Below, one piece after another: positions 534 through 6,242 of a stretch of DNA of 33,520 nucleotides. Position 1 is the first letter of the stretch. The number at the start of each line of letters is the position of its first letter. Both the position numbers and the translations under genes were made by a program. Source of the stretch: Candidatus Polarisedimenticolaceae bacterium (lineage in GTDB: Bacteria > Acidobacteriota > Polarisedimenticolia > Polarisedimenticolales > DASRJG01); assembly GCA_036376135.1 (NCBI GenBank), contig DASVAW010000133.1:1-33520 (forward strand), read 5' to 3'. The notes under the pieces are model-generated. The model worked only from the letters and a program-made list of their open reading frames with translations, was not told where the DNA came from and did no database searches.

Positions 534-3500
534 GTGAAGCGTCTCCGGGTCGCCGCTGTCGCGCTGGTGATCGTCGTCGCCCTCGTCGCCGCGGCGGCGT
601 GGTGGTGGCGGGACCTCCCTCGACGCAGGGTCGAGGCCGCACTGGAGGGGAAACTCTCCGCAGAGGTCCGGCTCGGAAGGCTCGAGATCCGCGGCCTCGA
701 CCGCTTCGTCCTTCACGACCTCGAGGTGCGGCGAGTCGCGGGACAGCCGCGTCTCGTGCACGCCGTCGTCCGACGCCTCGAAGCCGACGGCGGTGCCCGC
801 GCGATGCTCGAGGGGCGCTTCGACCGTCTCGGCCTTCGCGGAGCGGAGGTCCGGCTCGGCCCCCCCGACCCTTCGATCCCGCCGCCGCCACCCGGCCCTC
901 CCGCGAAGATCGCCGCCGGGGTACTGACGCTCGCCGAAGGTCGCCTCGTGATCGCGACGGAGGGGGGCGAGACCGCGCTGGACGTCGACGCCGACCTAAG
1001 CGACTTCGGGGGCACGACCTCGGGGACGGCGCACGCCGTCGCGGACACGCTCCCGCTCGCCCCGTTCGGCGTCCGGGCCGAGCTCCGTGACGTCGCGACG
1101 ACGGCCAGGTTCTCGGGGAACGAGGTGGCGCTCGACGCCGTCGCCGTCGCCGACGGCACCACGAGGATCGCGGCGAACGGCACGATGGACCTCGTGACGA
1201 TCCGGCTCCTCGACGTCGACGCCGAGGTTTCCGGGATCGACGTCGCGCGCTGGCTTCCCCTCGTGCCGGGGCGACCGGAAGGACTCGAGGTTTCGGGCCG
1301 GGTCGACCTCCGGGCGCGCATGCCGCGAGGGGCGCCGCTCGCCTGGACGCTCGAGGCGCGCCTCGACGAGCCCCCCGGCGAAGCGAGCCTCGCGGGGACG
1401 CTCGACGCCGTGGATCTCCTCGCGGGCGGAGCCGTCCGGGGAACGCTGACGGCGGAACCGGCGTCGATCCCGATCGTGCTCGAGCTCGACGGCAACGTGA
1501 CGCTCCGCCCCGAGGCGCGCTACGAAGGGACCGCCACCGCGCGGATCGAGGCCCTTCCACCCGTCGCCGTCTCCGGCCACGCGACGCCCAGGCAAGCGGC
1601 CGCGACGTTCGCGTGGGAGGGAGCGGCGATCGACGCCCTCGTGCCGCTCGCCGCCCGCCTCGGCGTGACGCTCCCCGAGTCCCTGACGATCGACGGCGCG
1701 CTCACGGGGCGGGCGCGCGTCGCGTGGCCTGCCGTGGACCACTTCCTCGATGCCGACGTGACCGTCGCCCGGCTCGCGGCTCGGTGGGGCGAGACCATGC
1801 GGCTCGATGACGCGACGTTGCGTGCGAAGCTGGCGACCGCGGCGATCGGCGCTCCCTGGATCGTTCGGGAACTCGCCCTCTCGGGCCGGGCGCAATCTCC
1901 CCCGCTCGCGGCCGTGACGCTGACGCTCGGAGGCATGGCGACGGTCGATCCGGCGACCGCGTCGTGCCGCGACGCCTCGCTCGCCTTCACCGCCGGCGAC
2001 CTCGCCCGCGGAACGATCGCCGGCGCCTGGGACCCGCGCACGGGCGGAGCCGCCGACGTGGAGGTGCGCGGCCTCGAGGCGACGCGGTGGCAGGGCTTCC
2101 TGCGCCCCCTCATCGGCGACCCCGCGCCGGGATTCGCCGCGAAGGGCGCCGCGACCGCGACCCTGCGCGTCGCGCTCGATCCCTCGTTCGCGTGGTCCGC
2201 GACGGGCACCGCGGCGATCGTCGGCAGCGGCTTCGCCTCCGACGACGGCGGGCGCGTCCTCGAGGGGCTCGACACGCGGTGGGCGCTCGCCGGTTCCGGA
2301 TCCGGGTCCGCCGTGCGCGCGACCGCGACGGCGGAGGTCGGCGGGTTCCAGGCCCTCTGGGGGAGCTTCTTCGCCGACTACTCCGGACTTCCCTCGACGC
2401 TCGCGGCGGATGCCGCGGTCGACGGCGCCGCCTGGACGGGCTCTTTGCGCTGGGCCTGGCCCGGCGGCCCGCTCCTTCAGGCCCGGGTGACGGACGGGGC
2501 GGGGAACGGCCGGATCGGCTACGGCGTCACGCTCGAGATCGAGGACCTCGGCTCGACCCTGTCGCGGTACCTGCGCGAACCGCTGGGATCCACCGTCCCC
2601 TTCTTCGAGAAGATCGGGGGGCGGGGGGCGTTGCGCCTCGAGGCGGGGGGCACCTTCGGCGACGACGCGATCGTCGCCGCAGGAAGCGTGCGCTCCAGCG
2701 GACTGTCCGTCGCGGGCACGCAGGGCGTCGTGGAGGTGGAGGGGCTCGAGCTCGATCTGCCGTTCGATCTCCGCTGGGGGCCACCCGGGCCGGGCGGGTC
2801 GCGGCCGCTCGACGGACGGGAACGGGAGGGGTCCCTCCGCTTCTCTCGGTTCGCCGCCGCGGGGATGGAGATCCCGGAGACCTCGACCGGGCTGCGCATC
2901 CGGACCGACAGCGTCGAACTGGTCGAACCGTTGGCGGTGCCTCTTCTCGACGGCCTCGTCGGTTTCGAGCGCCTCACCCTGACCGAGTTCGCACGCCCGT
3001 CGCGACGCCTCGAGATGGCGATGCTGCTTTCGAAGATCGACCTCGCGACGGCGTCGAAGGCGTTCGGGCTTCCTCCGCTGACGGGATTCGTGGACGGGTA
3101 CTTCCCCAAGGTCGTCGTGACCGGTGCGTCGTTCCAGGTCGACGGCGGCGGGGAGGTCGGAGTTTTCGGCGGCAAGGTGAGGATCGGCGGGATCTCCGGC
3201 GAGGACGTGCTGACGCGTTTCCCCAAGATCCGCCTGTCCGCCGATTTCGAGGAGATCGACCTCGCCCTCGTCACCAGGACCCTCGACTTCGGCGACATGA
3301 GCGGGATCGTCCGGGGCCACGTCCACGACCTCACGTTGTTCCGGGGGGTCCCGACGTCGTTCGAGGCGCGCCTCGAAACCGTCGAGCGCGAGGGGGTCCG
3401 CGGCCGGATCAACCTGAAGGCGGTGAACAACCTCGCGATCCTGTCGACCGGGAGTCCCGGCCTGCTCGACCGCGGGATCCAGAAGTTCATCGACGCGTTC

Positions 3501-3728
3501 ACCTATCAGCGCCTCGGGATCGAGTTGTCGCTCGCCAACGACGTCTTCCTGATGCGCGGCCTCGAGAAACGCGGCGACCGGGAGCTGTTCGTGAGGGGGC
3601 GGCTTCCGTTCCCCATCGACATCGTGAACGCCCAGCCCGGCAGGACCGTCTCCTTCCGCGCGATGCGCGAGCGGATCGGAAACGTGGATTTCAAGGTCGG
3701 AGGCTCGGGCCCGCCGCGGAAGCGGTAG
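534..3728 (+). CDS. YdbH-like / AsmA-type intermembrane lipid transport protein
   Basis: A 1064-residue protein with one N-terminal membrane segment (about residues 5-24, then WWWRDLPRRR) and otherwise long, beta-rich, weakly repetitive sequence, as in AsmA/TamB/YdbH proteins. These form a hydrophobic groove across the periplasm and are thought to carry phospholipids between inner and outer membranes. Identification as YdbH-like rests on the overall build, on a C-terminal region (about 860-1055) resembling the YdbH C-terminal domain, and on the gene immediately downstream, which encodes a YdbL (DUF1318) domain. It is longer than E. coli YdbH (about 880 residues). The GTG start is placed by the transmembrane segment; AGAGG lies directly against it, so spacing is poor. 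A general AsmA-family label is the safer alternative. Confidence 0.7.
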   Translation: MKRLRVAAVALVIVVALVAAAAWWWRDLPRRRVEAALEGKLSAEVRLGRLEIRGLDRFVLHDLEVRRVAGQPRLVHAVVRRLEADGGARAMLEGRFDRLGLRGAEVRLGPPDPSIPPPPPGPPAKIAAGVLTLAEGRLVIATEGGETALDVDADLSDFGGTTSGTAHAVADTLPLAPFGVRAELRDVATTARFSGNEVALDAVAVADGTTRIAANGTMDLVTIRLLDVDAEVSGIDVARWLPLVPGRPEGLEVSGRVDLRARMPRGAPLAWTLEARLDEPPGEASLAGTLDAVDLLAGGAVRGTLTAEPASIPIVLELDGNVTLRPEARYEGTATARIEALPPVAVSGHATPRQAAATFAWEGAAIDALVPLAARLGVTLPESLTIDGALTGRARVAWPAVDHFLDADVTVARLAARWGETMRLDDATLRAKLATAAIGAPWIVRELALSGRAQSPPLAAVTLTLGGMATVDPATASCRDASLAFTAGDLARGTIAGAWDPRTGGAADVEVRGLEATRWQGFLRPLIGDPAPGFAAKGAATATLRVALDPSFAWSATGTAAIVGSGFASDDGGRVLEGLDTRWALAGSGSGSAVRATATAEVGGFQALWGSFFADYSGLPSTLAADAAVDGAAWTGSLRWAWPGGPLLQARVTDGAGNGRIGYGVTLEIEDLGSTLSRYLREPLGSTVPFFEKIGGRGALRLEAGGTFGDDAIVAAGSVRSSGLSVAGTQGVVEVEGLELDLPFDLRWGPPGPGGSRPLDGREREGSLRFSRFAAAGMEIPETSTGLRIRTDSVELVEPLAVPLLDGLVGFERLTLTEFARPSRRLEMAMLLSKIDLATASKAFGLPPLTGFVDGYFPKVVVTGASFQVDGGGEVGVFGGKVRIGGISGEDVLTRFPKIRLSADFEEIDLALVTRTLDFGDMSGIVRGHVHDLTLFRGVPTSFEARLETVEREGVRGRINLKAVNNLAILSTGSPGLLDRGIQKFIDAFTYQRLGIELSLANDVFLMRGLEKRGDRELFVRGRLPFPIDIVNAQPGRTVSFRAMRERIGNVDFKVGGSGPPRKR

Positions 3729-3734
3729 CGCGGC

Positions 3735-3740
3735 TACAAT
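3735..3740 (+). promoter_or_regulatory. possible -10 box before the DUF1318 lipoprotein gene
   Basis: TACAAT lies in the 37-bp gap after the YdbH-like gene, 26 bp before the next ATG, and a strong GGAGAAGGAG Shine-Dalgarno sequence follows. No good -35 is visible at the right distance, so this may be chance and the gene may simply be cotranscribed. Confidence 0.2.
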
Positions 3741-3765
3741 CCACGCCGAGGGAGAAGGAGCCGCC

Positions 3766-4383
3766 ATGAACGCACGCGCCCGGGTTCTCGCACTCTCGCC
3801 GGTCCTGCTGACCGCAGCCTGCTTCACGATCAACGTCTATTTCCCGGAAGCCGCGATCCAGGACCTCTCCAACAAGATCGAGGAGCAGGTCGTCAAGGAG
3901 GCCGCGGCGAAGGCGGCCGCGGCATCCGACGCCCCGCCGCCGTCCGAGCCCGTGGAGAAGCCGAAGGAGTCCTCGAGCGTCCTCGACCTGTTCCTGGGCA
4001 CCTCGGTGGCCCACGCCGACGAGGTCGTCGCCCCGGAGGTCTCGAGCCCGGCCATCCGCAAGATCATCGACTCGCGCGCCGGCCGCCTGGACCAGCTGAA
4101 CGACCTCAAGGCCAAGGGGGTGATCGGCGAGAACAACCAGGGTCTGGTCGAGGCACGCGCCCTCGAGACGCTCGCCGACCTCAAGGCGCGCGCCGACGTG
4201 CAGCGCCTCGTGAAGGCGGAGAACATCGACCGCGAGGAGCTCTACAAGGAAGTCGCCGCCGCGAAGGGAGTGGATCTCGCGCAGCTCCCGAAGATCCGCG
4301 AGACCTACGCCGAGACGCTGCGCGATCGCGCGAAGCCGGGCGAATGGATCCAGGGCCCCGACGGCGGTTGGAAGCGGAAATAG
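3766..4383 (+). CDS. DUF1318 lipoprotein (YnbE-like N-terminus joined to YdbL domain)
   Basis: A 205-residue lipoprotein. The signal peptide ends in LLTAAC, so Cys19 should be lipidated. It is followed by FTINVYFPEAAIQDLSNKIE, which recalls the short strand-forming region of E. coli YnbE. A linker rich in Ala, Pro and Glu (about 45-90) leads to a C-terminal DUF1318/YdbL domain (about 100-205) ending in RAKPGEWIQGPDGGWKRK, very close to the E. coli YdbL C-terminus. In E. coli, YnbE is an outer-membrane lipoprotein that partners YdbH, and YdbL is a separate periplasmic protein affecting that interaction. Here both parts appear in one chain, 37 bp downstream of the YdbH-like gene. The DUF1318 call is firm; the YnbE equivalence is inference. 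Confidence 0.8.
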   Translation: MNARARVLALSPVLLTAACFTINVYFPEAAIQDLSNKIEEQVVKEAAAKAAAASDAPPPSEPVEKPKESSSVLDLFLGTSVAHADEVVAPEVSSPAIRKIIDSRAGRLDQLNDLKAKGVIGENNQGLVEARALETLADLKARADVQRLVKAENIDREELYKEVAAAKGVDLAQLPKIRETYAETLRDRAKPGEWIQGPDGGWKRK

Positions 4384-4393
4384 ACCGAGTCCC

Positions 4394-5281
4394 GTGCCCA
4401 CCTATCGCATGACCGTCGAGTACGAAGGCACCCGCTACCACGGCTGGCAGGAGCAGAAGAACGCGCGCTCCGTCTCCGGGGAGCTGCACCGCGCCGCGCG
4501 GGCGGCGGGGGCGGAGGTCGTCGAGATCGGAGGCTCCGGGCGGACCGACGCGGGAGTCCACGCCTCCGCGCAGGTCGCCCACCTCCGGCTGCGGGCCGGG
4601 GTCGATCCGGGCCGCCTGCGCCTGGCCATGAACGACGCGCTCCCGCCCGACGTCCACGTGCTCTCCCTCGAGCCGGCGCCGGACAAGTTCCACGCGCGCC
4701 ACGATGCGATCCGCCGCACGTACGTCTACCAGATCGCGCGGCGTCGCACGGCCTTCGCCAAGCGATACGTCTGGTGGGTCAAGCGCGCTCTCGACGCCCG
4801 CCGGATGCAGGAGGCCGCGGCGTGCCTGGAGGGTCGTCACGACTTCAAGCTGTTCTGCGAGGCGCCGTCCCGTCAGGAGAGCACGCTCGTCGTGGTCGAG
4901 GAAGCGCTCGTCGTCGAGGACGGGGGGCTGCTCCTGCTGCGATTCACCGCGTCGCACTTCCTCTGGAAGATGGTCCGTCGCGTCGTCGGCGCCCTCGTCA
5001 AGGTCGGCGCGGGGGAGCTGTCGGTCGCGGAATTCCGCCAGCTCGTCGACGGGAACCCGATCCCCGGAATGAAGGACGGCACGGCGGCCTGGACCGCCCC
5101 GCCCTCGGGGCTGTTCCTCGCGAAGGTGGCCTACCGCGGGGATCTTCCGGAGGGCCCGGTCATTCGGCCGGTGGTGCCGGTTGCGGCGGAGCCGGCGACG
5201 GCCCGGGCTCCCAGCGAACCCGAAAGGTCGTCTCGGGACGCAACGCCTTCCGGAACGCGGCGACGACCTCCGCGTCGGTAG
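4394..5281 (+). CDS. truA: tRNA pseudouridine synthase A
   Basis: TruA converts U38-U40 of the tRNA anticodon arm to pseudouridine. The N-terminus (YEGTRYHGWQEQ, residues 10-21) and the catalytic loop GSGRTDAGVHA with Asp52 as nucleophile are clear, and later family motifs FLWKMVRRVVG and GLFLAKVAY are present. It starts at GTG 10 nt after the lipoprotein gene. The family normally ends soon after the GLFL motif. Here about 45 further residues follow, rich in Pro, Ala and Arg and ending RRRPPRR, and they overlap the 3' end of the convergent lipoprotein gene by 122 bp. The tail is probably not needed for catalysis. Confidence 0.95.
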   Translation: MPTYRMTVEYEGTRYHGWQEQKNARSVSGELHRAARAAGAEVVEIGGSGRTDAGVHASAQVAHLRLRAGVDPGRLRLAMNDALPPDVHVLSLEPAPDKFHARHDAIRRTYVYQIARRRTAFAKRYVWWVKRALDARRMQEAAACLEGRHDFKLFCEAPSRQESTLVVVEEALVVEDGGLLLLRFTASHFLWKMVRRVVGALVKVGAGELSVAEFRQLVDGNPIPGMKDGTAAWTAPPSGLFLAKVAYRGDLPEGPVIRPVVPVAAEPATARAPSEPERSSRDATPSGTRRRPPRR

Positions 5282-6242
5282 GCGGGGACTTCGAGACGAC
5301 CCGGATTCTCGGGGCGAACGCCTCGAGGTCGAGCTCACCCCCGTCCCTCGCGCGCCACGACTCGACGAGGAGGTCGGGGGCGACCCAACGCCCCTCGATC
5401 GAGCGGAACGCGGCCCAGGCCCCCAGACGGGGGACCGCGAGCGCCGCGTCCGGACCGTCGACGAACCCCTCGCGCTCCAGCACGCGGCCCGCGACCACCA
5501 CCGACAACTCGGTCGGAAACGGATCGAAGAGGCGCTGGATGCGCTCGTCCAGCGTGTCCTCGCGATCGGCGGGCACCTGGAGCGCGGCCAGCACGCCGTC
5601 CCGGGCTTCCGACATCGCGGAGGCCAGCGCGCGCTCGTCGGCGGTCAGGTCGTTCCCCTCCCCGGAGCCGTTCGCCCGCTCCAGGCACGGAACCGCCCTG
5701 GACGGATTCGCGAGGAGATAGCCGTAGAGGGCGTGTTCGGCTCGGACGAATCGGGTGACCTCCGCCGCCCATGCTTCCAGCTCCCGAAGTCCGCGACGCT
5801 CGTCGGGGGTGCGGGCGGTCCCCCCTTCGGGAACGGTCAGCGTGAACTCCCGCCAGGCGCCGTCCGGGTCCTCGGCGTAGTGCGCGGAGACCGGCGAACC
5901 GGAAAACAGCCGCTGCAGGAGCGACGGGTCGTCGATGCGCGCGATCCGCTCCGCCTCGACCACCGCCCCCTTCTCGCGGCGGACGGTTTCGTCGTCCCCT
6001 TCGGGCTCGAGCGCTTCGATCCGACGGGTCGAGGCGTCGGTCCGGTCGAGGATCTGGCGCGCCCACCGGTCGATCCGCTCGGCGGCCGGACCGCTGTCGT
6101 AGTCCCCCCGGTTGAGCCGGACGAGGGAGGTCACCCGGACCTCCTCGTCCCCGAACCGGATCTCGACCGACTCCGTGACCGGAGGATCCAGACACGCCGC
6201 GGCGGCGACGAGGCACGTCGCGACCGCGAGGAGCCGCCTCAA
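5160..6242 (-). CDS. predicted lipoprotein of unknown function
   Basis: A 360-residue protein with a basic, hydrophobic signal peptide (MRRLLAVATCLVAAAAC); Cys17 is the likely lipidation site, though the -3 residue is Ala rather than Leu. The mature part is acidic, probably alternating helices and strands, and ends in a Pro-rich tail. I do not recognise a domain. Its TTG start overlaps the TGA of the response-regulator gene as TTGA, so it is very likely translated in coupling with the LytS/LytTR pair and may be an accessory or target of that system. Its 3' end overlaps truA by 122 bp tail to tail. Confidence 0.7.
   Translation of the reverse strand: MRRLLAVATCLVAAAACLDPPVTESVEIRFGDEEVRVTSLVRLNRGDYDSGPAAERIDRWARQILDRTDASTRRIEALEPEGDDETVRREKGAVVEAERIARIDDPSLLQRLFSGSPVSAHYAEDPDGAWREFTLTVPEGGTARTPDERRGLRELEAWAAEVTRFVRAEHALYGYLLANPSRAVPCLERANGSGEGNDLTADERALASAMSEARDGVLAALQVPADREDTLDERIQRLFDPFPTELSVVVAGRVLEREGFVDGPDAALAVPRLGAWAAFRSIEGRWVAPDLLVESWRARDGGELDLEAFAPRIRVVSKSPPTDAEVVAAFRKALRPETTFRVRWEPGPSPAPPQPAPPAE

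Follow-up and report, generated by a model that had tools for sequence, protein, structure and literature searches.

The window analysed here, a 33,520-nucleotide stretch of a Candidatus Polarisedimenticolaceae bacterium (contig DASVAW010000133.1), carries a two-gene locus in which the gene of a YdbH-like protein (P0001) is followed by that of a lipoprotein (P0002) joining an N-terminal anchor part to a YdbL domain. At the junction of the two parts, proteins fused in this way keep a short hydrophobic stretch ending in A-x-A, which resembles a signal peptidase I site in the alignment; this junction motif is new here and absent from the preliminary description of the DNA. The best explanation, which we favour tentatively over a permanent tether, is that signal peptidase I cleaves the precursor after Ala84 once it has been lipidated. 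It is favoured because the junction motif is conserved and because the free YdbL signal peptide of naturally split genes ends at the aligned site.

The motif was followed through 162 fused proteins, of which 89 came from phylum and contig searches and the others (48 and 25) from two samples drawn with Pfam and chosen independently of likeness to the window protein; some loci share one genome. They reduced to 118 below 70% identity. Sites of signal peptidase I follow a rule of small residues at -3 and -1, with -2 free and Pro absent at +1, and all 118 non-redundant proteins conform to it: the residue at -1 is Ala in every one, that at -3 is Ala in 109, Val in six, Leu in two and Cys in one, -2 is variable, and +1 is occupied by Gln (51), Ala (40) or Glu (12) among others and never by Pro. 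Upstream, Pro is frequent at -5 (37%) and -4 (28%), and the stretch from about -15 to -6 is rich in Leu. Conservation within the linker is highest at -1 (4.3 bits) and -3 (3.8 bits), while positions -25 to -16 reach only 0.3-0.9 bits. When the linkers were shuffled in 500 rounds and scored with the same tolerance as the real count, a strict AxA was found in 11.7 proteins on average and in 22 at most, and a looser pattern (small residue, any residue, Ala) in 37.9 on average and 55 at most. Counted apart, the samples have Ala at -1 in 69 of 69 proteins (with three split proteins and two duplicate loci left out of this count) and in 43 of 43. The window site consists of SVLDLFLGTSVAHA (residues 71-84) followed by DE, placing the cut between A84 and D85. 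In the AlphaFold model of a relative, L022, the motif (model residues 486-488) lies inside a disordered stretch (458-495) with a predicted local distance difference test score (pLDDT) below 50, so that folding fails to explain its conservation; since the residue rule is obeyed and the disordered location leaves folding no explanation, the junction element may well be a working site. The prevalence of Gln at +1, where it is the commonest residue, is reminiscent of the Q-rule, which reportedly applies to signal peptidase I substrates in Bacteroidetes.

Natural split forms place a signal peptide end at the same point. In Methylobacillus (L093), Methylotenera (L086) and a metagenome-assembled genome (L082) the two parts are separate genes, with a stop codon within the linker and YdbL restarting with a full signal peptide, whose predicted end aligns with the fused site (SLA/AADLEVNTPAI in L093, AYA/QADLNISTPAI in the fused L100, the slash marking the predicted cut). 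These loci share with the window the anchor motif, the YdbL subfamily and the type of YdbH tail, and they differ from it in the linker stop codon and in possessing a full YdbL signal peptide, which ends in the place of the internal AxA. In a tree of the YdbL domain (120 columns and 150 rows, midpoint-rooted, with many forks open) the three group with three fused proteins of Rhodanobacteraceae (support 99), within the side to which all 117 fused rows belong. Opposite it, with support 95, are 16 YdbLs of ynbE-type loci and eight for which no lipoprotein was found, and the YdbLs of L008 and L014 sit on a long branch placed with the fused side. Because the three split forms nest inside the fused side of the tree, the split form looks derived from the fused one.

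Several observations weigh against cleavage. In the count, Ala at -1 was looked for before anything else, with a shift of up to two residues from the aligned column allowed, and contact of YdbH with the anchor was unseen in a tethered model whose control likewise failed. The stretch before the site is weakly hydrophobic, with a maximal 8-residue mean hydropathy that averages 1.55 and falls as low as -0.06, compared with 0.48 for the rest of the linker, 2.74 for the signal peptides of the lipoproteins and 2.3-3.3 for those of the three free YdbLs. A charged residue stands at position -9 in 39% of the proteins (Asp in 32 of 118), unlike the core of a classical signal peptide. Low hydrophobicity and frequent Asp at -9 are what an amphipathic binding motif might show, and the main rival is a protein that is left uncut and carries a binding motif there: the hydrophobic-Pro-AxA segment would act as a short linear motif with YdbH, the anchor strand or lipid as its binding partner, and YdbL would work in cis on the anchor. 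Retention of the fused gene over many phyla also favours such a tether. Yet neither agreement with the -3/-1 pattern, in which -2 is free and Pro is missing at +1, nor coincidence with the point where the YdbL signal peptides of the split genes end is expected of a binding motif, and we regard an uncut protein as rather unlikely. The preliminary description had proposed that the fusion ties the outer-membrane anchor and the modulator of the bridge together; a signal-peptidase-I-like junction motif in 118 of 118 proteins puts this in doubt, and the fate of the tether is possibly the reverse of that reading.

It is more improbable still that the segment is a fossil, the decayed remnant of a signal peptide from a time when ydbL was a gene of its own, inherited and of no present use. 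Its position matches the ydbL signal peptide exactly and its hydrophobic stretch is short and weak beside those of free YdbLs, as would be expected of such a remnant, but decay should be even, whereas -1 and -3 are the most conserved linker positions in many phyla; moreover, the split forms seem to derive from the fused ones and not the reverse.

Under the favoured explanation, the lipid bridge that YdbH forms between the membranes is encoded here by two genes. The first would supply an inner-membrane-anchored AsmA-type beta-groove protein, and the second a precursor with two signals, a lipobox for lipidation at Cys19 and the signal-peptidase-I-like site A84/D85, at which signal peptidase I would most likely cut once lipidation has taken place. 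One product would be a 66-residue lipopeptide (residues 19-84) with TINVYFP, serving as outer-membrane anchor at the YdbH C-terminus; the other, in equimolar amount, would be a free periplasmic YdbL domain (85-205) acting on the anchor as is thought for E. coli YdbL. The latter is said, in work by Kumar, Davis and Ruiz, to limit the multimerisation of YnbE. The weak hydrophobic core may be offset by the lipid, which would already hold the chain at the membrane. It is about as likely as the cleavage itself that across many phyla anchor and YdbL are made as one precursor, processed at its front end by signal peptidase II with attachment of a lipid and internally by signal peptidase I, the lipid anchor replacing the weak hydrophobic core; such an arrangement would hold the two products at 1:1 and bring YdbL to its client as soon as it is made.

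The earlier reading is right for YdbL. The textbook YdbL C-terminus that it recognised in the lipoprotein is matched by PF07027 (DUF1318) at residues 109-205 of P0002 (3.3e-19; 69.6 bits, cut-off 27), and E. coli YdbL (PDB 28oj) matches residues 125-205 by sequence (2.1e-6). The fold was compared on the model of the relative L022, and there 28oj is the best Foldseek match of the domain (E 3.9e-4, template modelling score 0.82 by target length).

The N-terminal part is less easily named. In P0002, LLTAA precedes Cys19 (3820-3822) and TINVYFP occupies residues 21-27; the lipobox followed by TINVYFP-type sequence is present as had been described, with Cys19, Asn23, Phe26 and Pro27 invariant in 12 of 12 aligned proteins (P0002 and 11 relatives), and Cys19 is predicted to be lipidated. 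The anchor part forms a small lipoprotein segment within the ydbH operon, a gap of 37 bases separating the frames of P0001 and P0002, and it occurs free as a small lipoprotein in L093, L086 and L082; counted from Cys, the split L093 lipoprotein has 42 residues and E. coli YnbE 45. In position, lipobox and size it is YnbE-like. Homology to YnbE was not supported: PF13617 (YnbE) has no match in P0002, in its N-terminal 49 residues or in the split lipoproteins L093 and L086, and a profile-profile comparison (hhalign) of the anchor peptide with YnbE returned a probability of 2%, with two of 100 column shuffles scoring as well and the TIN strands not aligned together. The proposed two-gene YdbH module with YnbE and YdbL parts is thus supported as a ydbH module whose lipoprotein carries a YdbL domain and unsupported for the homology of the N-terminal part to YnbE. 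The expected lack of a separate ynbE-like gene elsewhere in the genome agrees with the finding of no PF13617 match at E <= 10 in the window's own genome, nor, with the threshold at E <= 0.1, in 13 genomes that carry the fused or the split form, a weak negative because the profile is insensitive: a real ynbE of the same phylum (L014) scores only E 0.11 and was missed in its own genome by the same search. It is highly doubtful that the N-terminal part is a true, shortened YnbE whose TIN strand is added to the YdbH C-terminus exactly like that of YnbE. The same place in the operon, the lipobox, the similar length when split off and the common TIN triplet would fit such an origin, as would a YdbH tail type that tracks the lipoprotein type, while the PF13617 and hhalign results, the Pro that breaks the strand after six residues and an AlphaFold tether without a strand (although its control failed too) argue against it.

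The YdbH tail was compared in the two Pfam-drawn samples, which played no part in writing the tail pattern. Among loci with an upstream frame, 44 of 68 fused-type loci carry the pattern and none of 33 ynbE-type loci does (by sample, fused 26/44 and 18/24, ynbE-type 0/13 and 0/20; split 2/2). It is also found in 65 of 72 contig-scan loci, and in 31 of 36 among those outside the search model; the misses include many near-matches by eye (e.g., PRIDVKGFNRRVDW) and some loci with an unrelated upstream frame. A first count, 49/51 against 0/14, was set aside as unfair because a similar tail pattern had helped to select the 51 loci and because the tails had been viewed before the pattern was drawn up. 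The difference in tail type between lipoprotein types suggests that the YdbH tail and the lipoprotein meet, whatever their ancestry. Contact was examined in tethered single-chain AlphaFold models, the L022 lipoprotein being joined to the YdbH C-terminus by read-through. TINVYFP came out disordered and strand-free, with pLDDT below 50 up to residue 430, and in the control, the canonical YdbH and YnbE of L113 (an alignment of 14 rows, with YnbE in two only), YnbE was equally disordered (pLDDT 26-40). An interaction of YdbH with YnbE is reported (PMC12977461), and because YnbE was disordered in the control too the test decides nothing. A separate observation concerns the ynbE-type loci L104-L121, in which the last YdbH strand (of the PVHLNVNVEEN type) resembles the YnbE strand (PITINLNVKIEHE) so closely that MAFFT repeatedly superposed them; YnbE may copy the final YdbH strand.

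The upstream protein P0001 matches no YdbH or AsmA Pfam family, PF11739 included. The 38 YdbH-like proteins that were aligned, with P0001 and E. coli YdbH among them, have Pfam matches at E <= 0.1 to DUF748 (16), AsmA (7), TamB (5), YhdP (4) and the YdbH-like family PF11739 (4). A profile built from 18 of the 38 finds residues 421-770 of E. coli YdbH at E 1.8e-4, but the probability is no higher than 48%. The C-terminal 400 residues of the YdbH of L022 consist mainly of long strands in the AlphaFold model, for which TamB structures are a weak match (9xdc_B, E 0.3; Foldseek). P0001 can be placed in the AsmA clan with good confidence and considered orthologous to YdbH with moderate confidence. 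The idea that a longer YdbH makes a YnbE stack unnecessary was dropped: in gammaproteobacterial loci with fused or split lipoproteins, YdbH frames counted from the first start are mostly about 670-760 codons long, with a maximum of 917, against 879 amino acids in E. coli.

The fused arrangement is widespread, not rare. Within the window's genome P0002 is the single DUF1318 match; a homologue is present in six of 41 related genomes (its own included), and DUF1318 is found in 15 of 199 genomes of the phylum at E <= 0.01, in 13 of them over the cut-off. The phylum has both arrangements, as L008 and L014 carry ydbH-ynbE-ydbL; their YnbE is divergent (HITVDVRIKIDRELE) and was scored by PF13617 at E 0.11 or missed. 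A contig scan yielded at least 505 relatives, of which the best 80 were retained, 36 of these being also in the search model. In 72 of the 80 a ydbH-type frame is found no more than 2.5 kb upstream, and six of the remaining eight have at least 600 bases upstream; L028, L030, L049, L054, L059 and L095 have a fused lipoprotein with no ydbH-type frame in up to 2.5 kb upstream. Titles among the matches listed include Acidobacteria, Deltaproteobacteria, Thermodesulfobacteriota, Nitrospirae, Methylomirabilota, Binatia, Tectomicrobia, Aminicenantes and Proteobacteria. Of 274 genomes in the Pfam-drawn sample for the class to which Methylobacillus belongs, 77 match, with 78 loci; leaving out L163 and L169, for which no intact frame was found, the 76 classified loci divide into 48 fused, 15 separate of ynbE type, two separate TINVYFP and 11 without a lipoprotein found. 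Of the two separate TINVYFP loci, L124 is the Methylobacillus locus again and L152 looks frame-broken beside its fused sister L138. Two further phylum samples match in 37 of 148 and 19 of 118 genomes, and their 49 loci (a count that omits nine of the 39 matches of one sample) are 25 fused and 24 separate. Two DUF1318 matches per genome were seen in G530 and G567 of the phylum sample and in G310 of the class sample, the last having one fused copy (L125) and one separate copy (L134). A plasmid collection searched with P0002 gave no matches.

The features of the locus are listed in Table 1. The ORF listing confirmed both frames of the preliminary description (534-3728 and 3766-4383). The next gene after P0002 is truA, which starts at 4394. 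An ORF at 5160-6242 on the minus strand is predicted to be lipoprotein-like (LVAAAAC-LDPP) and overlaps the 3' end of the truA frame on the opposite strand; it has no Pfam match over the cut-off.

Table 1. Coordinates of the YdbH-like and lipoprotein genes and of their parts in the window.
Feature	Position	Strand	Evidence
YdbH-like AsmA-clan protein with N-terminal membrane anchor	534..3728	+	ORF, 1064 aa, GTG start; Pfam matches of relatives; profile against E. coli YdbH
YdbH C-terminal tail, PIDIVN..VSFRAMRERI	3612..3725	+	tail type occurring next to TINVYFP lipoproteins
Lipoprotein precursor: anchor peptide, junction site and YdbL domain	3766..4383	+	ORF, 205 aa, ATG start; PF07027
Lipoprotein signal peptide ending in LLTAA, followed by Cys19	3766..3819	+	sequence; lipobox Cys invariant in 12 aligned proteins
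Cys19 (predicted lipidation) and conserved CFTINVYFP anchor motif, residues 19-27	3820..3846	+	sequence and alignment
Junction element SVLDLFLGTSVAHA (residues 71-84), with a predicted cut of signal-peptidase-I-like type following Ala84 (base 4017)	3976..4017	+	aligned motif
DUF1318/YdbL domain, residues 109-205	4090..4380	+	PF07027 3.3e-19; 28oj by sequence, and by fold for relative L022

Among known systems, ydbH-ynbE-ydbL of E. coli (NC_000913) resembles the window in its gene order, an AsmA-type bridge gene coming first, then a small lipoprotein and last a YdbL domain, and the YdbL fold is common to 28oj and the fused form, as modelled for L022. The window differs in having two genes instead of three and another YdbH tail; its TINVYFP directly follows Cys, whereas the E. 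coli strand PITINMNVKIEHEI lies 12 residues further on, and its YdbL part has no signal peptide with a start of its own, unlike that of E. coli. A single precursor halved at an internal signal peptide has a precedent in FbcH, the cytochrome b/c1 precursor of Bradyrhizobium, a parallel that the literature search did not retrieve. The internal signal of FbcH possesses a full hydrophobic core, and its first product is integral to the membrane instead of being a lipoprotein. YdbH is listed as one of three redundant AsmA-like transporters (PMC12800296), YnbE is placed with YdbH (PMC11784454), and a plasmid carrying ydbH-ynbE-ydbL is reported to suppress a growth defect of the tamB yhdP double mutant (PMC8593681). 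In the literature we found no account of a YnbE-YdbL fusion or of an internal site in DUF1318 lipoproteins, either of which Kumar, Davis and Ruiz (PNAS 2024) might mention.

The fused form bears on the function of YdbL, which its PDB entry calls "probable chaperone-like", and the conserved junction site is the part worth following. If the lipoprotein is never cut, YdbL would act on the anchor in cis. If signal peptidase I does cut it, YdbL must leave the anchor to work and would be supplied in an equal amount, which would fit a chaperone role; and the known range of signal peptidase substrates would grow to include lipoproteins whose second, signal-peptidase-I-like site is strongly conserved.

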